Positions 20,466 to 63,980 of a stretch of 64,000 bases of DNA are shown here, one piece after another. The stretch covers positions 62,001 through 126,000 of the forward strand of contig CALGMA010000009.1 in NCBI GenBank assembly GCA_937959265.1, given 5' to 3'. The notes beneath the pieces were generated by a model that saw only the letters and a list, made by a program, of their open reading frames with translations, did not search any database and was not told the DNA's origin. Source of the stretch: an uncultured Anaerolineae bacterium. GTDB lineage: Bacteria > Chloroflexota > Anaerolineae > J036 > Brachytrichaceae. Every line of letters begins with the position of its first letter. The stretch's first letter is position 1. The position numbers and the translations under genes were made by a program.

Positions 20466-21722
20466 ATGCTCAACCCTTCCGCAATCCGCAGCGAATTCCC
20501 CGCGCTGGCGCGCGAACACGCCGGCCGGCCGCTGGTGTTCTTCGACGCGCCCGGCGGCACGCAGGTCACGCGGCGCTGCCTGGACTACATGGTCGAGTAC
20601 CTCACGCGCCACAACGCCAACACGCACGGCGCATTCATCACCGCCCAGGAGAGCGACGCGCTCATCGAGGCCGCGCACGAAGCCGCCGCCGACTTGCTCA
20701 ACGCCGAGCGCAAAGAGGAGATCATTTTCGGCCAGAACATGACCAGCCTGACCTTCGCGCTGAGCCGCAGCATCGGCCGCGCGCTGCGCGAAGGCGACGA
20801 GATCATCCTCACCCGGCTCGACCACGATGCCAATTTCTCGCCCTGGCGATTGATGGCCGAAGAGCGCGGCGCGCGCGTGCATGTGGTAGACGTCAATCCT
20901 GAAGATTGCACGTTGGTCATGGAGGACTTCGCGCGCTACCTGAACGCGCGCACGCGGCTGGTAGCCGTGGGCTATGTGAGCAACGCCGTCGGCACGATCA
21001 ACCCCATCAAGCAGATCGCCGGCATGGCGCATGATGTCGGCGCACTGGTCTTCGTGGACGCCGTCGCTGCCGCGCCGCACCTGCCGATTGACGTGCGCGA
21101 TCTAGGCGCCGACTTCCTGGCCTGTTCGACCTACAAGTTTTGGGGGCCGCACCAGGGCATCCTCTACGGCAAATATGATGTGCTCGACCGGCTGCCGGCT
21201 TACAAGGTGCGCCCCGCCGACGACCGGCCACCCCACAAGTTCGAGACCGGCACGCAAAGCCACGAGAATCAGGCTGGGTTGCTGGGCGTGATCGAGTATC
21301 TGGAATGGCTGGCCGCGCAGGCCGACGCGGCGCCGGCGTCGAGCGCGAACCTGCGCAGCCCACGCGCTGCTGAGATCCATCGCGCGATGCATGCCGTGCG
21401 CGCATACGAGGCTGAGCTGGCCGGCTACTTGATCGAGCATGTGACGGCGATCCCCGGCGTGCGCTTCTTCGGCATTCGCGAGCGCGCGCGCATGGATCAG
21501 CGCGTACCCACCATTGCCATCCGCTACAAAGATGAGCATCCGCGCGCGACCGCAGAACGCCTGGCCCAACACGGCATCTGCGTGTGGGACGGCAACTACT
21601 ACGCCATCAACCTCACCGAGCGGCTGGGCGTCGAAGCCGACGGCGGCATGGTGCGCATCGGCCTCACCCACTACAACGCGCGCGAAGAGATTGACCGGCT
21701 GCTCGACATACTTGAAGCGTGA
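20466..21722 (+). CDS. Cysteine desulfurase-like class V PLP enzyme
   Basis: This protein of about 418 residues belongs to the class V aminotransferase fold. It has NANTHGAFITAQESDALIEA, DVGALVFVDAVAAAPHLPID with the PLP-pairing Asp, and LACSTYKFWGPHQGILYG with the Schiff-base Lys. It resembles the cysteine-desulfurase-like subfamily whose substrate is unknown, and lacks an obvious catalytic Cys loop. ATG 20466 (MLNPSAIRSEF) was chosen over an in-frame TTG at 20448 that would overlap the RNase H gene. Its stop overlaps the next start as GTGA, so it is coupled to the YfhO gene, an odd pairing with no obvious joint function. Confidence 0.8.
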   Translation: MLNPSAIRSEFPALAREHAGRPLVFFDAPGGTQVTRRCLDYMVEYLTRHNANTHGAFITAQESDALIEAAHEAAADLLNAERKEEIIFGQNMTSLTFALSRSIGRALREGDEIILTRLDHDANFSPWRLMAEERGARVHVVDVNPEDCTLVMEDFARYLNARTRLVAVGYVSNAVGTINPIKQIAGMAHDVGALVFVDAVAAAPHLPIDVRDLGADFLACSTYKFWGPHQGILYGKYDVLDRLPAYKVRPADDRPPHKFETGTQSHENQAGLLGVIEYLEWLAAQADAAPASSANLRSPRAAEIHRAMHAVRAYEAELAGYLIEHVTAIPGVRFFGIRERARMDQRVPTIAIRYKDEHPRATAERLAQHGICVWDGNYYAINLTERLGVEADGGMVRIGLTHYNAREEIDRLLDILEA

Positions 21723-24538
21723 ACGCGGCTGAGCAGACAAAGCGACAGAGGGACAAGGAGGCCAGGCGTCATCACTACTTCCTCGCCTTCCTGTATCCCT
21801 GCCTCCTCATCCTGCTCACGCTCGCCGCGACCTGGAAGCTCACGCTGGGCGACCGCATCATCGCGCGCGGCGACTTGCTGCTCTATTTCTATCCGTTGCG
21901 CGACTACGCGGCGCAGACCGTCCGCGAGTTGCGCCTGCCGCTGTGGAACCCCTACACCTTCATGGGCGCGCCGTTTCTCGCCAACCCGCAGGTCGGCTTC
22001 TTTTACCCCTTCAACGTGCTCACGGCCTGGCTGCCGACCGAGCGCGCGGTTTCGTGGAATATCGCGCTGCACCTGGCCATCGCTGCGCTCGGCGCTTACG
22101 CGCTGGCCCGTCGCGGGTTTGCGCTCGGCCGATTGGCGGCGTTTGCCGGCGCAGTCACATTTGGTTTGGGCGGCTATCTCGGCGCGCAGGCCGAGCACTT
22201 GAACCAACTGCAGGCGTTGGCATGGCTGCCGCTCGGCGCGCTCATCGTCATTGCATCGGCGCGGCAAAGCGAGCCGGCCGGCATCATGCGGTCGGTGGTT
22301 GGATTAGCGGCGGTGGCATCGCTCCAGGTGCTGGCCGGGCACACACAATCGCTCTACATCAGCCTGGCAGCGATGGGATTGATTGCGCTGTTGCTGACGC
22401 TAGTTGCGCTATGGAACAACCGGCCGTCCGACTCGCAGACGACGCTTCGCGCGGCTGCGCCGCTGTTCGTCACCGTGGCCGGGGCTGCGCTTGCCGCAGC
22501 CATGTGCGGCGCGCAACTGCTGCCCACCCTTGAGCTTTCGCGCGAGTCAGCGCGCGCGGGCGGCTTGCCGTTCAACGAAGCCGGATCGTTCTCTTGGCGG
22601 CCATGGGTGGTCGCGCGCGCGCTGATGCCGACCTACGGCGACCCTTTGTTCGCGGAGTATGTCGCCTATCTCGGCGCAAGTGGGCTGGCGTTGGCGCTGC
22701 TGGGCGGACTGGAGATGCGGGGGCGGCAATCCGCATCACAATCGTCATCTGGCCTCATCCCCTGCGTGCTGGTGATAGCCGGCGTCGTCCTGGCGCTGGG
22801 AGTGGTCACGCCCGCGTTCGGCGTCTTGTACCGCCTCATGCCCGGCTTCAACCTGTTTCGCGCCCAGGCCCGTTGGCTGATCGTGTTTGCGCTGGGGGCT
22901 GCGATGCTCGTCGGTTTCGGCGCGCAGCGCCTGCAACGCGGCCTGAGCGCGGCGCAGGCGCGCAACTGGCTGATTGCCTGGCTGTTGCTCGTGGGGCTGT
23001 GGGGCGCCGGCCTGCTGGTCGGCGCGCGCTTCTCGCCGGAGCCGGAGTATCGCGCGCTGCCCGGGCGCGGCGTGATGCTGGGATGGGCTGCAGCAATCGG
23101 AATAGTAACTGTGGCCGTCGTCGGCCATTGGTGGCCGATGCGCCGCAACCATGCCCCAATCGCCGATTCCCGATTGCCGATCGCGCCGCTGTTCATCATT
23201 GCGCTTGTCCTCGAATTGCTGGTCGCGTCGCAGTTCCAGCCCTACGCGCGCGCGGCAGACCGGCAAGCGCTCACCTCGCTGCGTCCGGCGACGGCGCACC
23301 TGCTGGCCGAGTCGGAGCTAGGCGCGATGCGCACGGGGCGCATCCTGGCGCTCTCATCGCTCTTCTTCGACCCTGGCGACAAAGCCGAACAGGAGCTGAT
23401 CTTCGGCGCGTCGTTGAACGCAGATGAAACATACGACCGGCTGATTGCGGCTAAGCACAAGGAGATCATGTCGCCCAACCTGTCGTTGTATTACCGGCTG
23501 CCCAGCGTGGATGGTTACGACGGCGGCCTGTTGCCGACGCGGCGCTACGCCGAGTTCGCGCGCCAATTCGCAGCGACACCCACCGGCGCGGTGGACGGCC
23601 GGCTGCGCGAGTTTCTGGCCGGCCCGCCGGCCAATCAGTGGCTAGAGCAGATGGCCGTGCGCTACCTCATCGCCGACAAAACGCAGGACGTGTTCATAGA
23701 CGGCGTGTATTACGACCTGCTGTTCAGCGCGTCGCTCACGCCGGCTGCAGTCGAAATCCCGCTGCGCGAATTCTCGTCTACCGCGCTGGGGCTTGTCCTG
23801 AGCGCCGAGGATGCGCAAGCCGGCCAGGTCATCGCTGCCGCCGAGGTGCGCTTCTCCGATGGCGATGCGCAGGCGTTTGAGATTCGCGCTGCCGAACCGC
23901 TCACGCCTTACTTCGGCGCGCGCCTGACATGGGCCGGGCGCAAGACGCCGCAGGCCGTCGCCTTTCGCGGCCTGGCCAACGCGCGTGCCACGCTGCGCGG
24001 CCTCACCAGCATTGACCAGACCGACGGGACGTTCCTCTCGCAGATGGCGACCGGCGACCATGTGATGCGCCTGATCCACTCCGGCGACGTGAAGATCTAT
24101 GAGAACCTGCGGCATGCGCCGCGCGTCGCTGTGCAGAATGCGGCCGGCGCGCCGATTGACATCAGACAGGTGGGCGGAGAGATCGTCGAGGAGCAACCGG
24201 AGTTCGTGCGCGTTCGATTCTCCGATGCGACGCCGCAGGATTCGCTATCCCACTCGAACAAGCGACTAATTCTGCGCGATGCGTGCTTCCCCGGCTGGGT
24301 CGCGCGCGTGGACGGCGTCGAGACGCCGATCGCTTGTGTTGATACGCTCTTCCGCGCCGTTGCGCTGCCCGCCGGCGCGAAAGAAGTGACGTTCAGCTAC
24401 GAGCCGCAGAGCGTCCGTCTGGGCTTCATCGTCAGCGCTGCCGGCGTGGCGCTGTGGCTGGCGCTGATCGCGCTGGTCGGCCTCATTTCTTCATGCGCGG
24501 GTCAAGGGCGTCGCGCAGGCCGTCCCCCAGGAAGGTAA
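21719..24538 (+). CDS. YfhO-family membrane protein
   Basis: This 939-residue protein opens with a GTG overlapping the previous stop. About twelve membrane segments in the first 520 residues include LRLPLWNPYTFMGAPFLANPQ, the signature of YfhO-type GT-C proteins. A soluble extracytoplasmic domain (about 520-900) precedes a last hydrophobic segment at the C-terminus. YfhO in Firmicutes adds sugars to lipoteichoic acid; in Chloroflexota the role is unknown, and glycosylation of a cell-surface lipid or protein is the best guess. The last 56 bases overlap the convergent oppC-type gene. A second YfhO-type domain occurs in the fusion protein at 59769. Confidence 0.82.
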   Translation: MNAAEQTKRQRDKEARRHHYFLAFLYPCLLILLTLAATWKLTLGDRIIARGDLLLYFYPLRDYAAQTVRELRLPLWNPYTFMGAPFLANPQVGFFYPFNVLTAWLPTERAVSWNIALHLAIAALGAYALARRGFALGRLAAFAGAVTFGLGGYLGAQAEHLNQLQALAWLPLGALIVIASARQSEPAGIMRSVVGLAAVASLQVLAGHTQSLYISLAAMGLIALLLTLVALWNNRPSDSQTTLRAAAPLFVTVAGAALAAAMCGAQLLPTLELSRESARAGGLPFNEAGSFSWRPWVVARALMPTYGDPLFAEYVAYLGASGLALALLGGLEMRGRQSASQSSSGLIPCVLVIAGVVLALGVVTPAFGVLYRLMPGFNLFRAQARWLIVFALGAAMLVGFGAQRLQRGLSAAQARNWLIAWLLLVGLWGAGLLVGARFSPEPEYRALPGRGVMLGWAAAIGIVTVAVVGHWWPMRRNHAPIADSRLPIAPLFIIALVLELLVASQFQPYARAADRQALTSLRPATAHLLAESELGAMRTGRILALSSLFFDPGDKAEQELIFGASLNADETYDRLIAAKHKEIMSPNLSLYYRLPSVDGYDGGLLPTRRYAEFARQFAATPTGAVDGRLREFLAGPPANQWLEQMAVRYLIADKTQDVFIDGVYYDLLFSASLTPAAVEIPLREFSSTALGLVLSAEDAQAGQVIAAAEVRFSDGDAQAFEIRAAEPLTPYFGARLTWAGRKTPQAVAFRGLANARATLRGLTSIDQTDGTFLSQMATGDHVMRLIHSGDVKIYENLRHAPRVAVQNAAGAPIDIRQVGGEIVEEQPEFVRVRFSDATPQDSLSHSNKRLILRDACFPGWVARVDGVETPIACVDTLFRAVALPAGAKEVTFSYEPQSVRLGFIVSAAGVALWLALIALVGLISSCAGQGRRAGRPPGR

Positions 24539-54993: not shown

Positions 54994-56049
54994 ATGCATT
55001 GGGAACGGGCTTCGGAGGACATCTACATCTTCACCAGCGACCGTTACGCGCAGGTGACCGCGAGCCTGATCGTCTCCGGCAACACGGGCATCCTGATTGA
55101 CACACTTCCTTTCCCAAGCGAAACGGCTCAAATCGCTTTGTTCGCTCGCAAGCGCTGCCCAGACGGCGTGCGCTTCGTGATCTACACCGGCCATGAGGCC
55201 GATCACGTCTACGGCGCCTTTCTCTTCCCCAAAGCCGAGATCATCGCGCACGAGATGGCGCGCGAAATCCTGATTGAGCGCGGCTTCGCCGCCTTGCAAC
55301 GCGCCAAGGAGCAATCGCCGGAATTCGCACCCATCCAACTGCGCCTGCCGACGTTCACCTTCACCACGAACAGCGTCACGCTGCGCATGCCGGGCAAGAC
55401 GCTGGAGATCATCCACACACCGGGCCATACATCGGATTGCGTCTCGGTGCTGCTGCACGAGGAACGCATCCTGTTCTCCGGCGACACCGTCATGGCCCTG
55501 CCGACCATCACCAACGGCGACCCTGAGCAGCTCAAGAAGTCGCTCGAAGCCGTCGGCGCGATGCAACTGGAGAACATCGTGCAAGGTCACGGGGAAATCA
55601 TCCTGCGCGGCGAGATCCGCGACACGCTGCGCCGGCAGGTCAACTACCTGGACAACCTTCGCAGCAAGGTGCAAAAGCTGATTGACGCCGGCGGCAGTCG
55701 CGATGAGGCCAAAGCCATCACCATCGAGCAATGCGGCATGCCACGCGTGCTGCTGAACGGCGCCGTGGTGCAGCTCCACCTCGCCAACGTGCTGGCGACG
55801 TACGATCGGCTGATGGCCGCGAAGACTGCCGAAACATCGCGCGCAGCGTCCGCCGCGAAGCCGAAGGCAACCAAGAAGCCGGCTGCCGCGAAGCAAGAGA
55901 AAGCCACGCGCGCCAAGAAATCCGACGACAAGTCATCGGCGCCAAAGGGCGCATCGAAGTCGAAGGCGGCGACCAAGAAGACGAGCAAGCCAGCCAAGCG
56001 CAAAGAATCGCCGCAGGCCAGCGCGTCGAAGAAGGGCAAAGGACGGTGA
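54994..56049 (+). CDS. Metallo-beta-lactamase-fold hydrolase with histone H1-like tail
   Basis: The 351-residue protein has an MBL-fold domain (about 1-225) and a tail of about 70 residues rich in Lys, Ala and Ser (AKPKATKKPAAAKQEKATRA and more). Domain motifs are GILIDTLPFPSE, HTPGHTSDCVSV, LFSGDTVMALPT and IVQGHGEIILRG. The usual HxHxDH zinc motif reads TGHEADHVYG, so the first two His positions do not align normally. The tail resembles bacterial histone H1-like or AlgP-type nucleic-acid-binding ends. The substrate is unknown, but a nucleic-acid link is suggested. The next gene follows at once. Confidence 0.8.
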   Translation: MHWERASEDIYIFTSDRYAQVTASLIVSGNTGILIDTLPFPSETAQIALFARKRCPDGVRFVIYTGHEADHVYGAFLFPKAEIIAHEMAREILIERGFAALQRAKEQSPEFAPIQLRLPTFTFTTNSVTLRMPGKTLEIIHTPGHTSDCVSVLLHEERILFSGDTVMALPTITNGDPEQLKKSLEAVGAMQLENIVQGHGEIILRGEIRDTLRRQVNYLDNLRSKVQKLIDAGGSRDEAKAITIEQCGMPRVLLNGAVVQLHLANVLATYDRLMAAKTAETSRAASAAKPKATKKPAAAKQEKATRAKKSDDKSSAPKGASKSKAATKKTSKPAKRKESPQASASKKGKGR

Positions 56050-56054
56050 GCCGG

Positions 56055-57686
56055 ATGAGCGTCCTGCAAGCTGCGCTCATCGCTCTGTTCTATGCGTTTG
56101 CCCGATCGGCCTTCAATGCCGGGCTGGGTGGCTATGTGCTGGCCCAGCCGCTCGTCGCCGGCACGATAGCCGGTGCGCTACTCGGCGACCCGATCCGCGG
56201 CGCGCAAATCGGCGGCGCGCTTAACTTGGGCACGCTCGCCCTCAGCCAGCTTCGCGTGCAGGTCGGCCCGGATGTCGCGCTCATCGGCTATGTCGGCGTA
56301 TCGCTCATGCTGCTGAGCGGCCTGCGCCCCGACGCTCCGGAAACGGCAGCGCTGTTCGGCGCGCTGGTCGTGTTTGGGATCGCGTTGAACTTTGCGCGCG
56401 GCATGTTCAACACCGTGGTCGCGCACTGGGCCGATTACTTCGCCGACCAGGGCAACATCAGCATCGTCGCGCTGCTCAACGTCGTCCCCACGCAGATCTG
56501 GGTCGTGCTCACCTCGTTTCTGCCGGCGCTGTTCATCCTGCTGTTCGATGCGCCGACCATCGCCGGCATCGCCGCATCCATCCCCGCCTGGGTGCAATTG
56601 GCGATGGACTGGAGCCGGTATTTGCTGGCCGCGCTGGGCATCGCCATGAGCCTGCGGTTGGTCATGCAAGGCAGCAGCATCGCCTACTTCCTGCTGGGCT
56701 GGCTGAGCGCGCCCTACCTGGGCTTGACACAGGCGACGCTCCTCGGCGGCAGCATCGCCATTATTCACGCCTTCTTGGCCCGCCGACGCGCCGACGTCAA
56801 CACCGAGATGCTCATCGCCGATGTGCTGCCCTCCGATCAGGCCGAAGGTTACCTGGCGGAGCAGCAATTGTCGCCGGCGGAGCTGCAGTCTTCATTCGTG
56901 CTGTGGATGTTCTTCCACGACGCCGGCGCGAACTTCGAGCGCTTTCAGAACATGGGTTTCGCTGCAGCGCTCGCGCCAGCCGCCAGGCGACTATGCGAGA
57001 CGGCCAGTGAGCGCGTCACGTTGTTGCGCCGTAGCTTGACGCTGTTCAACTGCGAGTGGTCCTTCGGCGCGTCGCTGGTCGGCGCGCTCATCGCGTTGGA
57101 GGAGCGCCGCGCCAACGGCGAAGCGATCAACGACGCCGAGCTGGTCGGCGCAAAGACGGGCGTCATGGCCGGCCTGGGTGCGATTGGCGATACAGTCATG
57201 CTAAGCGCGGTCGGCTCGCTGCTCATCGCCGCAGGCGCGGCATTGGCGGACCGCGGCAGCCTGATCGGGCCGTTCATGTTTGCAGTCGTCCAGTCGGCGC
57301 TGGTGCTGGCGGCCGGATTCATCAGCTTTCAACTTGGCTATGCGCAAACGCGTCGCTTCGGTGACTGGGCGCGCGCCAACAATTGGCTGCGCCCAGCCTT
57401 ATTCGGCGCGATGCGCCTGGGCGCTTTCGCGCTGGGCGCGCTGGTTGTTGTGCTCGCGCCGGTCGCATTGCCCGGCAACGGCTTGATCCAAATCGGCGCG
57501 GCGCAACTGCCCGTGCAGACGCGCGTGCTGGATGCGATTCTGCCGGGCGGATTGCCCCTGGTCGCCACGCTGGCGATGTGGTGGTTGCTGCGCTCCCGGC
57601 AGGCTAGCCCGGTCGGCCTGATGGGCGGATGCCTGATCGTCGCCGCTGCCGGCGCAGTCATCGCGCGCGCGATCGGTTGGGTGTGA
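56055..57686 (+). CDS. Fused PTS mannose-family IIC-IID membrane protein
   Basis: This 543-residue protein joins two domains normally on separate chains. The N-terminal half (about 1-250) matches EIIC of the mannose/sorbose family: LGGYVLAQPLVAGTIAGALL and GDPIRGAQIGGALNLGTLAL. The C-terminal half (about 275-540) matches EIID: LWMFFHDAGANFERFQNMGF, LTLFNCEWSFGASLVGALIA, LEERRANGEAINDAE and GAKTGVMAGLGAIGDTV. No IIA, IIB, HPr or EI gene is nearby. ATG 56055 was chosen; an in-frame GTG at 56046 overlaps the previous stop and is an alternative. The ligand and the transport mode are unknown. Confidence 0.8.
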   Translation: MSVLQAALIALFYAFARSAFNAGLGGYVLAQPLVAGTIAGALLGDPIRGAQIGGALNLGTLALSQLRVQVGPDVALIGYVGVSLMLLSGLRPDAPETAALFGALVVFGIALNFARGMFNTVVAHWADYFADQGNISIVALLNVVPTQIWVVLTSFLPALFILLFDAPTIAGIAASIPAWVQLAMDWSRYLLAALGIAMSLRLVMQGSSIAYFLLGWLSAPYLGLTQATLLGGSIAIIHAFLARRRADVNTEMLIADVLPSDQAEGYLAEQQLSPAELQSSFVLWMFFHDAGANFERFQNMGFAAALAPAARRLCETASERVTLLRRSLTLFNCEWSFGASLVGALIALEERRANGEAINDAELVGAKTGVMAGLGAIGDTVMLSAVGSLLIAAGAALADRGSLIGPFMFAVVQSALVLAAGFISFQLGYAQTRRFGDWARANNWLRPALFGAMRLGAFALGALVVVLAPVALPGNGLIQIGAAQLPVQTRVLDAILPGGLPLVATLAMWWLLRSRQASPVGLMGGCLIVAAAGAVIARAIGWV

Positions 57687-59768: not shown

Positions 59769-62700
59769 TCATGCGCTGCGCCTGACCAGCGGGCGCAGAA
59801 TCTCGCGCTCCTGCGGGGCCAGCGCATGGGTAAGCCACAGCACCGCGCCGTAGGCTGCCAGGCCAAGCGCCAGCCCGATGAGCACGACGCCACCGGAGGC
59901 AAACGCCGCCGTCACAACAGCCATCACCCCTGCTGCGAGGAACGGCTTGGCCAGCACCTCGACCCAATTCACCGGTGCGATGTATTGGCGGACGAAGACA
60001 TAGAACGCCGCACCCTCGACGATCTCGCTGAAGATGGTCGTCACCGCCGCCGCCACGAATGAGAACAGCGGGATGAAGATGGCGTTGGCGACGACGTTGA
60101 ACGTCAGCCCAATGATGAAGGCGCGTGTGAGCGCGCGCTGTTGGCCGGCGGCTATCAGCGCGTAGTTCGTCACGCTGTTGATCCAACCGATCGGCATACT
60201 CCAGGCCATGATGGCAAGCGCGATGGCACCGTTCGGCAGGAACTCCCGCCCGCCCAGCACGGCGATCATCGGCTCGGCCAGGAAGGCCGTGGCGACGGCC
60301 AGCGGCAGCGCCGTCATCACCAGCAGCTTGAGCGCCAGCGTGTACGAGCGCGCCAGTGACGCATCGCGCTGCAGCGCCATGCGCGACATGGCCGGGAACA
60401 GCGACTGTGTAAAGAAGGCCGGGATGATGTTGAAGGCGTCAATGAACTTGTAGGCCGCGCTATACCAGCCTACCGCCACCGGCCCTTTCAACGCCTGCAG
60501 CATCGGCACATCCACCTTGAAGAACAGCGTGGCCAGCAGATGGTTCAGCATCAGCGGAAAGGACTCGCGCAGGATGACCGATGATTGCTGAGCGGTAACG
60601 GGCGATGACGGCGCACCAACCATCCGCAACTGCAAATGCAACATCCGCCCGGCGAGGAGGAGCAAGAGGGCCAGCGTGATGACGTTGACGACGATGGAAG
60701 TGATCCCCAGCCCGATCACGCCCCAGCCGAGCAACAACAGCGTCGCGCCGATCACGGCCTTCAGCAGCGCGCTGACGATGGTGAGCGCAGCGGGCACTTC
60801 GGCCTTCTCGTAGGCGAAGAACACGGCGCTCAGGCCGGTGGACAGGCTGCTGGGAAACTGGCTGAGTGCGAGCAGGAGGATGGCGATCTCGGCCTCCGGG
60901 GCGAGGTTGAACGCCGCCCGCCAGATCAACACGAGCAGCACAACCGCCGGCGCGACCCCCAGTGCCAGCAGCATGCGCAGCCGGCTGGTTTGCAACAGAT
61001 AGGCCTGCGCATGAGCGGGATCACGCGCGACTTCGCGGGTGAGTAAGGTGTTCAGGCCAAAGTTCATCACGATCTCGAACCAGCCCACGATCACCACGGC
61101 GAAGTAGAAATTGCCGGCGCCCTCCGGCCCGAGCACGCGCAGCATCAGCAGCGCAAAGGCGAAGTCAATCAGCCGCGCAGCGATGTTGAGGCCGGTCAAG
61201 ATCAGGCTGTTGCGCGCGACCAGGCGCACGCCGGATTGCGCGCGCGCCTCGCGCACCGCGTTGCGCCAGACATATACGCCGCCCAGGAACAGCATCGCCG
61301 CCAGTGCGATGAACGTGGCGAACGCGCCGACGCGGAACGAGTCGGGCGAATAGCGGAAACGCACGGTGAAGGCCAGCGGGGCATCGGGAGTCGGAAGCGC
61401 GCCGCCGTCTATGCTTGACCCCGCGCCCCCCAGCAATACGCCGCGGAAGTTGCCGTTGACCTTGAACACAGGGACTTCGCGCTCGGCGCTATCCGGCGCG
61501 CCCAACGGCCGGACGAAGGCGCGCCAGCCGGGGAAGTGGCTGTCGGCCAAGATCAGCCAGCTCGGTTCACCGACTTGCGCATCCACCCACACCTCGTTGT
61601 GGCGATACACCGTGACGCCGGCCGGTGAGAACCGCGCCGGCAAGACGTTCGAGTTTTTCGGCAGCGCATCGGCAGCCGCCGTTGACCGCATCGCGCGGAG
61701 CACGTCAGGTTCCACCAAGACGAACTTGCGCAGGTCGTAGCGCCGGATGGCCTGGGCGAAGTCATCGGCAGCGACAGTGGCGCTGACCGGCAGGGTAAAC
61801 GCGCGCGGCATCGCCCGCTCGTTCTGGTAGATGCGCGTTGCGCCGTCGTCGTAGAAGCGCGAGAAGCCGGGCGTCGTGATCTCCTCTTCCGTCACCACAT
61901 ACTTCACACCGAGCAGGTCGAGCAGCGGCGACTCCAGGCTCTGCGCGTTCTTGATCGGCGCGATGCGGTTGTAGAGCAGCTCACCCTGTGGCTCGATAGC
62001 CTGCATGAAGTCGGTGTACTGTTTGGGGATGATCGAGTCGTAGCCGCGAATGTCTTGAAAGTCGAACAGCCAGGCCGAATTGGCGTTAAGCGGCTTGCCG
62101 GCGCGCGGCTCGTAGGCCGTCAGCCGCCAGAGCGACGTGTCGGCTTGGAGCGCCTGCATGGCCGGCGGCGTAAATCGCAACAGCTTGGGGTCCACCGTCG
62201 GGTTGAAGCCGGCCCAGGCCCAGTTCAAGTCGGCTGCTAGCAATGCGATGGCCAGCGCCGGCGCCGCGCGCACCAGCTTTGCTCCAAAGTGGGCGCCCTC
62301 GGCCGGCTGCGCGTGATGCCTGAGCAACAACCACCAGACCGCGCCGGCGGCGACCAGCAATAGCCCTAGGCGAACGACGTTGAATGCTTGGTAGCTAAAG
62401 AACATCTCGGCGCCGGTGAATCCCTGCTGCGCGGCCGAATTTCTGACAATGCCCGCGAAGAACGGCTGGAAGACCGGCCAGGCCAGCCGCGCGACCACCA
62501 CCGACGCGATCGCCAGCGTGCCCAGCGCCACCGCGACCCCGCTTGCGATCCAGTGCGCCCGCGCGATCGGGTTGTGTCTGGCCGGTGTGAGCTTGGGCCG
62601 ATACCCGCCGATGGCCGGCAAGCCTCTCGGTTCCGTCGCCAACGAGTCGAGCCCAGCGCCGGCCAGCGCGGCCAGCGACAGGGTGAGCGGGAAGATCCAG

Positions 62701-63980
62701 CGGAAGGGCGAATGCAACTGGCTGAAGCCCGGCACGCCGAAGAACAGGATGGCGTAGGCCGGCGTGCCGAAGATGAACAACAGCGAGAGCACGCCGAGCG
62801 CGACGAAGAACCAGGTCGGGAACTTCGATTGTCGGCCGGCAGTCGCGCGACGGCCCGATGCAGCGCGGATGCGGCCGGCGATGGCCACGCCGGCGAGGAT
62901 GAGCGTGATCAGGCCCACGTAAGCCGCGCCTTCGACGTAGTTCTTGACGCCCCAGGCGGTGTTGCCGCTTGGCGTATTCACCGCCTGACGGCTGAATGTG
63001 AACAGGTCGAAGTAGGTGTGGTGCGCCGGGTTGCCGAAGAAATCCGGCCCCAACCACTGCACGACATAGCGCCACGGGAAGGCGTAGCTCATCACCTCCT
63101 GCAGCGAGGCGCTGCCTTGGCGGAAGTTGCGCGTCACCAGCTCCAGCAACGGGATCAACTGCATCGCGCCGATGAGGATGCCGGTGACGCCCATGGCGAC
63201 CAGCCAGGCCAGCCGGCCGGCCAGATACGGCCCATCCACGCGCAGGTTGCCGAAGCCGATCACCGTGCTCACGCGCCACAGGCAGAACAGCGCCGTCACG
63301 ATGAGCGTGTAGGCCAGGATTTCGACGTGGCCGGCCAGGACGACCATGGCCAGGGCCAGCGCGCCGATCACCACCCAGGGCATGGACGACGGCCGGTTGC
63401 CCAGCCCAGGCGACTGCCGGATCACGCGCTCGCACATGGCCAAAATCAGCGGCAACCACGCTGCACTGGCGATGATCATCTGGAAGACCACCGAGACCAC
63501 GAAGAAGCCGCTCAACTGGTAAGCCACGCCGGCGAAGAGCGCACCGTAGCGTCGGACGCCGAGCGTCTGCATGAAGATGAAGGTGAAGACGCCGGCCAAC
63601 CCGAGCTGCAGCACGGTGAACCATCCATAGGCTTTCTCCAACGGCAGCGCATAGTACAGCAGGCTGAACGGATACATCGCCGAGTGCTGGCCCGCCGCGA
63701 GGAACGGCATGCCGGCGAAGAGATAGGGGTTCCACAACGGCAGCTCACCCTCGGCGAGCGACTTGATGATGAAGCGCTTCCAGGGGTAGTTTTCCAGGAT
63801 CAGATCGGAGAGCAGCTCGTTCTGGGGGACGCCGACGCCGAGCGACGCAGCCGCAGATTTGAACGGTTGCCAGGCGAACAGATTGTCTGCGGGGAGCAAC
63901 GTATAGCCACCGACGGTCACTGGAAAGAACAGTGCCATCGGCAGCAGCATGAGCAGGGCGATGCACGCCGCTGTGGCCAT
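59769..63980 (-). CDS. YfhO-type membrane protein fused to a Wzx/MATE-like polysaccharide flippase
   Basis: This single open frame has 1403 residues. The N-terminal part (about 1-900) is YfhO-like: FPVTVGGYTLLPADNLFAWQ, EGELPLWNPYLFAGMPFLAA, about twelve membrane segments and an extracytoplasmic domain (about 600-870). The C-terminal part (about 905-1400) is a flippase-like domain of about 14 segments: RNSLILTGLNIAARLIDFAF, LMLRVLGPEGAGNFYFAVVI, NFGLNTLLTREVARDPAHAQ and TLFFKVDVPMLQALKGPVAV. It may couple flipping of a lipid-linked sugar with its transfer outside the cell. The frame stays open to the window edge before ATG 63980, so the true start may lie beyond. Confidence 0.85.
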   Translation of the reverse strand: MATAACIALLMLLPMALFFPVTVGGYTLLPADNLFAWQPFKSAAASLGVGVPQNELLSDLILENYPWKRFIIKSLAEGELPLWNPYLFAGMPFLAAGQHSAMYPFSLLYYALPLEKAYGWFTVLQLGLAGVFTFIFMQTLGVRRYGALFAGVAYQLSGFFVVSVVFQMIIASAAWLPLILAMCERVIRQSPGLGNRPSSMPWVVIGALALAMVVLAGHVEILAYTLIVTALFCLWRVSTVIGFGNLRVDGPYLAGRLAWLVAMGVTGILIGAMQLIPLLELVTRNFRQGSASLQEVMSYAFPWRYVVQWLGPDFFGNPAHHTYFDLFTFSRQAVNTPSGNTAWGVKNYVEGAAYVGLITLILAGVAIAGRIRAASGRRATAGRQSKFPTWFFVALGVLSLLFIFGTPAYAILFFGVPGFSQLHSPFRWIFPLTLSLAALAGAGLDSLATEPRGLPAIGGYRPKLTPARHNPIARAHWIASGVAVALGTLAIASVVVARLAWPVFQPFFAGIVRNSAAQQGFTGAEMFFSYQAFNVVRLGLLLVAAGAVWWLLLRHHAQPAEGAHFGAKLVRAAPALAIALLAADLNWAWAGFNPTVDPKLLRFTPPAMQALQADTSLWRLTAYEPRAGKPLNANSAWLFDFQDIRGYDSIIPKQYTDFMQAIEPQGELLYNRIAPIKNAQSLESPLLDLLGVKYVVTEEEITTPGFSRFYDDGATRIYQNERAMPRAFTLPVSATVAADDFAQAIRRYDLRKFVLVEPDVLRAMRSTAAADALPKNSNVLPARFSPAGVTVYRHNEVWVDAQVGEPSWLILADSHFPGWRAFVRPLGAPDSAEREVPVFKVNGNFRGVLLGGAGSSIDGGALPTPDAPLAFTVRFRYSPDSFRVGAFATFIALAAMLFLGGVYVWRNAVREARAQSGVRLVARNSLILTGLNIAARLIDFAFALLMLRVLGPEGAGNFYFAVVIVGWFEIVMNFGLNTLLTREVARDPAHAQAYLLQTSRLRMLLALGVAPAVVLLVLIWRAAFNLAPEAEIAILLLALSQFPSSLSTGLSAVFFAYEKAEVPAALTIVSALLKAVIGATLLLLGWGVIGLGITSIVVNVITLALLLLLAGRMLHLQLRMVGAPSSPVTAQQSSVILRESFPLMLNHLLATLFFKVDVPMLQALKGPVAVGWYSAAYKFIDAFNIIPAFFTQSLFPAMSRMALQRDASLARSYTLALKLLVMTALPLAVATAFLAEPMIAVLGGREFLPNGAIALAIMAWSMPIGWINSVTNYALIAAGQQRALTRAFIIGLTFNVVANAIFIPLFSFVAAAVTTIFSEIVEGAAFYVFVRQYIAPVNWVEVLAKPFLAAGVMAVVTAAFASGGVVLIGLALGLAAYGAVLWLTHALAPQEREILRPLVRRSA

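Follow-up and report, generated by a model that had tools for sequence, protein, structure and literature searches.

Flippases of the MOP superfamily classically transport lipid-diphosphate oligosaccharides. Three-component glycosylation systems such as CsbB/GtcA/YfhO, which acts on teichoic acids in B. subtilis, S. aureus and Listeria, comprise a polyprenyl-phosphate-sugar synthase, a flippase and a YfhO-family glycosyltransferase of the GT-C class, and in most systems of this kind the flippase is of the GtrA type. A precedent for a Wzx-type flippase is GacK of S. pyogenes, which was proposed to flip polyprenyl-phosphate-GlcNAc for a GT-C enzyme (PMC8035078). A family of divergent YfhO-like proteins of the GT-C class, akin to STT3 and PglB, has furthermore been described as Component 27 (Durairaj et al. 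2023, PMC10584680). The gene described here encodes a YfhO-type GT-C head and a MOP flippase in one polypeptide. No earlier report of such a fusion was found in literature searches, and no YfhO literature on Anaerolineae was found in the library searched.

The gene is located at the end of the window, that is, the whole stretch of 64,000 nucleotides analysed, which derives from an uncultured Anaerolineae bacterium. As stated in the earlier note, it forms a single open reading frame uninterrupted by a stop codon at positions 59769-63980 of the minus strand. The length of 1403 residues given in that note holds for the in-window part (1403 of 1415 codons plus the stop codon). The reading frame extends beyond the window end, and relatives share a start codon that lies outside the window, an ATG at contig position 126016, 36 bp beyond the ATG at the window end. 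The full protein accordingly comprises 1415 residues and exceeds the length first given by 12. In its own genome the gene is flanked by genes for a urocanase, a metallophosphoesterase and an MFS transporter, and a glycan cluster was looked for among the neighbours of the fusion gene and not found. At 55731-57683 (plus strand) of the window, IIC and IID components of the mannose/sorbose PTS family likewise share one reading frame.

The N-terminal head (61242-63980, minus strand; residues 1-913 of the window protein, or 1 to about 925 in the numbering of the 1415-residue protein) matches the Pfam family YfhO (PF09586, 1.9e-10, 40.2 bits against a cut-off of 28.5). Searches of PDB sequences with the fusion profile or with the head alone yielded no matches, and an AlphaFold model of the window protein's own head was built with 57 sequences, reaching a mean pLDDT of 91.5 and a pTM of 0.92. 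In fold comparisons this model proved to have a GT-C fold, with AftD as the top match (Z 22.4 over 599 residues, last helix included), followed by the oligosaccharyltransferases (yeast OST, Z about 19; AglB, 17) and ArnT (about 15); STT3 and PglB were also among the GT-C matches, and Foldseek ranked ArnT first. Profile and fold together bear out the YfhO-type identity of this half. The model also shows two features typical of the YfhO family, many helices and a big loop on the outer side separating the final two of them: about 290 residues separate helix 573-589 from helix 880-913, forming a large outside domain (61344-62213, minus strand; window residues 590-879), and B. subtilis YfhO carries a large loop at the same place (PMC5836110). 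The last membrane helix of the head (61242-61343, minus strand; residues 880-913) is likely the part that is kept as a stub in stand-alone flippases.

Conserved columns were read from two alignments, one of 30 diverse fusions and one of 57 sequences. A P-x-D-N-L motif (63879-63893, minus strand), placed by the model in the first outside loop, contains Asp44 in the numbering of the 1415-residue protein. This aspartate and a second conserved acid, Asp71 (63804-63806, minus strand), are invariant in the 30 fusions, and a G-H-x-E motif is conserved likewise. As GtlB of Listeria requires a D-N-L-D motif in the equivalent loop (PMC5836110), Asp44 may be taken, by analogy, as the candidate catalytic acid of the GT-C module. 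A non-fused relative noted earlier at position 21719 of the window is a real member of the YfhO family (21719-24538, plus strand, 939 amino acids, Pfam 7.9e-11), though a remote paralogue, with 33% identity to the fusion head over about 260 residues and a distance of more than 4 changes per site on the tree.

The C-terminal half (59772-61217, minus strand) is an oligosaccharide-type flippase of the MOP superfamily. It matches PF01943 (Polysacc_synt) with 3.2e-27 and 96.1 bits against a cut-off of 28.2 over window-protein residues 921-1201, and more weakly PF13440 and MatE. All NCBIfam matches were below threshold. As even the best of these, Wzx_EPS, reached 55.6 bits against a curated cut-off of 800, the protein is not a Wzx_EPS equivalog and the assignment is made at the level of the superfamily. 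A MurJ identity was considered and rejected, since no MurJ NCBIfam match was obtained and the own genome contains two separate MurJ genes, so that no other protein is needed for lipid II flipping.

The junction was examined in a model of a relative (L149) comprising its residues 1-1200, which served in place of the full window protein of 1415 residues. The model has a pLDDT of 88.5 and a pTM of 0.89; its residues 8-828 match AftD (Z 23.8) and its residues 837-1200 match the MOP transporters DinF (Z 31), WzxE (Z 27) and MurJ (Z 24). This MOP fold, together with the PF01943 match, confirms that the second half is a polysaccharide flippase, as had been proposed. The last GT-C helix (805-833) is separated by about seven residues from the first flippase helix (from 841); in the window protein the two modules are joined by a short basic linker (61218-61241, minus strand) which is predicted to be cytoplasmic. 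The interface prediction proposed in the earlier note thus gave a confident model of two modules with a short link, and, judged by the pTM value, the placement of the modules relative to each other may be predicted with some confidence.

A possible source of the substrate is found next to the fusion in relatives. A GT2 glycosyltransferase of about 250 amino acids is encoded on the strand of the fusion in 34 of 80 relative loci. Upstream sequence was available for 77 loci; in 28 of these the GT2 gene stops near the fusion gene, anywhere from 146 bp ahead of it to 55 bp within it, and several loci show a 1-bp overlap. Pfam assigns the protein to GT2, and among solved structures dolichol-monophosphate-mannose synthase matches it best (1.8e-31), by which this DPM1-type protein is predicted to be a polyprenyl-phosphate-hexose synthase. 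Such a GT-A partner, encoded alongside as in other multi-component systems, occurs in the relatives and is unlinked in the own genome, where the nearest GT2 orthologue (51% identity) is on another contig. Farther upstream many loci carry genes for a response regulator, a V4R protein and a Roadblock/LC7 protein on the same strand (L121:3186-5941, L175:3129-5905, L185, L116, and others, from many Anaerolineae), pointing to regulation of the glycosylation operon by signalling. A second, PMT_2-like GT-C gene is located directly downstream of the fusion in L154 (6276-8282) and in L128, L129, L139, and L183.

As a MOP flippase is joined to a YfhO-family GT-C protein, a three-component system appears reduced to two genes, and GT2 and fusion together would form a transmembrane glycosylation system. 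The separate cytoplasmic GT2 would put a hexose on polyprenyl phosphate, the MOP half would bring this polyprenyl-phosphate sugar into the outer leaflet, and the GT-C half, tied to it via its last helix and the short cytoplasmic linker, would pass the sugar to an envelope acceptor outside the cell. The fusion, both folds, the conserved acidic residues, the GT2 operon of relatives, and the tree pattern outlined below are established at the level of sequence and prediction; from these we infer activity, direction, substrate, handover, and acceptor. A fused flippase-glycosyltransferase fed by the GT2 and of single early origin is on this basis considered probable. The flip-and-transfer machine of the earlier note, with its putative coupling of the two steps, is still the best reading and is strengthened by the GT2 in the same operon of many relatives. 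The unlinked GT2 of the own genome, the position of the fusion gene outside any glycan cluster, the lipid-diphosphate oligosaccharides that are the classical cargo of MOP flippases, the fact that several lineages have lost the head, and a GtrA-type flippase gene, of which the own genome has one, count against it.

The strong fold matches to STT3, AglB, and PglB would also fit an oligosaccharyltransferase-like head to which the flippase brings a lipid-diphosphate oligosaccharide, the usual cargo of MOP flippases, for transfer as a whole to a protein or other acceptor, comparable to Wzx or PglK with PglB or PglL; Chloroflexota filaments may indeed bear O-glycans (PMC12488501). This is nevertheless regarded as unlikely, since the conserved DPM1-type partner implies a monosaccharide donor linked by a monophosphate, and the head belongs by profile to the YfhO family and has AftD as its top fold match.

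The history of the fusion was deduced from trees of both halves. The flippase tree places fused and stand-alone proteins together in a clade of 66 (100/99), from which the outgroup flippases are separate. Within it the fused flippases are not monophyletic: starred branches force at least five changes, and the AU test yields a p value of 2e-27. In the head tree, by contrast, every fused GT-C head falls into one clade, set against the nine stand-alone YfhO proteins available for comparison (100/97, all bootstraps). Hydropathy values showed an extra hydrophobic helix ahead of the flippase in 20 of 29 stand-alone members of the clade and in none of 10 outgroup proteins. This helix resembles the last helix of the head: helix and linker of six stand-alone flippases scored 14.3-28.7 bits on the fused profile, the maximum among 16,291 control windows, from which real junction regions were excluded, being 13.9 bits. 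As the heads form one clade while the flippases are mixed with stand-alone ones that carry a helix stub, these sequence data are best explained by a single fusion after which the head was lost repeatedly while its last helix stayed behind. The fusion would have arisen once, early in Chloroflexota, and several lineages would later have dropped the head and kept flippase and helix stub. That one polypeptide channels the flipped sugar from the MOP to the GT-C half, and that this form, with its single early origin, founded a phylum-wide flippase family with a leftover helix, is advanced more tentatively, at slightly less than even chances.

Several loci show the modules in other arrangements. An 896-residue frame (L068:6894-9581, genome G337) combines a complete flippase with a shrunken head of about 400 residues which appears to lack the P-x-D-N-L and G-H-x-E motifs and looks like an intermediate of head loss. 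Apart from this reduced head, no YfhO remnants were found upstream of stand-alone flippases in open reading frames of at least 100 amino acids. That unfused relatives keep a YfhO gene beside the flippase was considered and is not so in the fetched loci, where the single YfhO gene found in the vicinity is about 5 kb away (L067). One genome (G029; L188, L213) has a YfhO head that resembles the fused heads most closely; an unrelated frame follows it to the contig end, and it has possibly lost its flippase. In the genome family f49, a small protein adjoins the stand-alone flippase in L083 (9684-10466) and L087 (8148-9056) and looks, judged by eye, like an enzyme of the metallo-beta-lactamase fold.

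By parsimony on the flippase tree alone gain and loss of the head cannot be distinguished, and helix similarity exceeds the controls in only six stand-alone proteins. The extra helix could hence predate the fusion: the flippase would already have had an N-terminal helix when it gained a GT-C head, perhaps repeatedly. This order of events appears improbable in view of the single clade of fused heads, the position of the helix within a YfhO/AftD-like domain, the shrunken head in one genome, and the helix-free outgroup flippases.

The survey of Chloroflexota which the earlier note had called for covered 60 related genomes, of which 45 encode the two halves within a single frame, nine have fragments and six lack a comparable match. 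Complete fusions among these span 24 families of the class, and a phylum sample added 14 further Chloroflexota families outside the class with 33-45% identity. The best 80 loci of a scan of genome contigs were all fusions, from taxa including Candidatus Roseilinea, Thermoflexus, Ardenticatenales, Aggregatilineales, and Anaerolineales, and all were labelled Chloroflexota save one MAG deposited as Pleurocapsa minor (L178, JAHHHY010000008.1), whose fusion is of the Anaerolineae type and which is probably a mislabelled bin. Two families of the class, f27 and f34, are well sampled but lack the fusion protein in the genomes examined.

Several lineages have the flippase but not the GT-C head, so that the flippase is evidently usable without this head. 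With a role separable in this way, the two halves might serve different substrates, the fusion only equalising their amounts and giving them a shared location. Retention of the joined form in no fewer than 24 families of the class, the short link in the confident two-module model, and the lipid-sugar synthase in the same operon make this rather doubtful, somewhat more so than the alternatives above. An assembly or sequencing error, in favour of which no evidence was found, can practically be dismissed, as the identical junction recurs in dozens of independent genomes, with an unbroken alignment across it in those relatives that were inspected, and the stop or start at residues 870-910 named in the earlier note as its sign did not appear in these single-frame relatives.

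Most members of one large bacterial group have a flippase and an enzyme using sugar lipids built as one protein. The covalent pair is a ready-made system to study the handover of a sugar from flippase to enzyme, and bears on whether MOP flippases move polyprenyl-monophosphate sugars; as it is natural, widely conserved, and linked to a sugar-lipid synthase, both questions become directly testable. The fusion also opens a first way into the study of surface glycosylation in Anaerolineae.

Compared by description only, Component 27 differs from the fusion head in that no flippase half is described for its proteins, which have a median length of 665 amino acids. AftD and ArnT share the GT-C fold of the head and use polyprenyl-monophosphate sugar donors but have no flippase module. 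In the systems of Wzx, WzxE, or PglK with Wzy, PglB, or PglL, a MOP flippase feeds a transferase of the GT-C class on the outside, as proposed for the fusion; these are separate proteins, however, with lipid-diphosphate oligosaccharide substrates and without a DPM1-type partner. In GacI/GacJ/GacK/GacL of the Lancefield group A carbohydrate a Wzx-type flippase is likewise proposed to supply a GT-C enzyme, but its GacK and GacL are not joined to each other, and the latter belongs to the PMT-2 type, whereas the fusion head is of the YfhO type. CsbB/GtcA/YfhO has the same three kinds of component, and its YfhO shares with the fusion head the big loop that separates the final two helices on the outside; its flippase is the small GtrA-family protein GtcA and its components are three separate proteins, whereas here a MOP flippase is fused to the GT-C protein.
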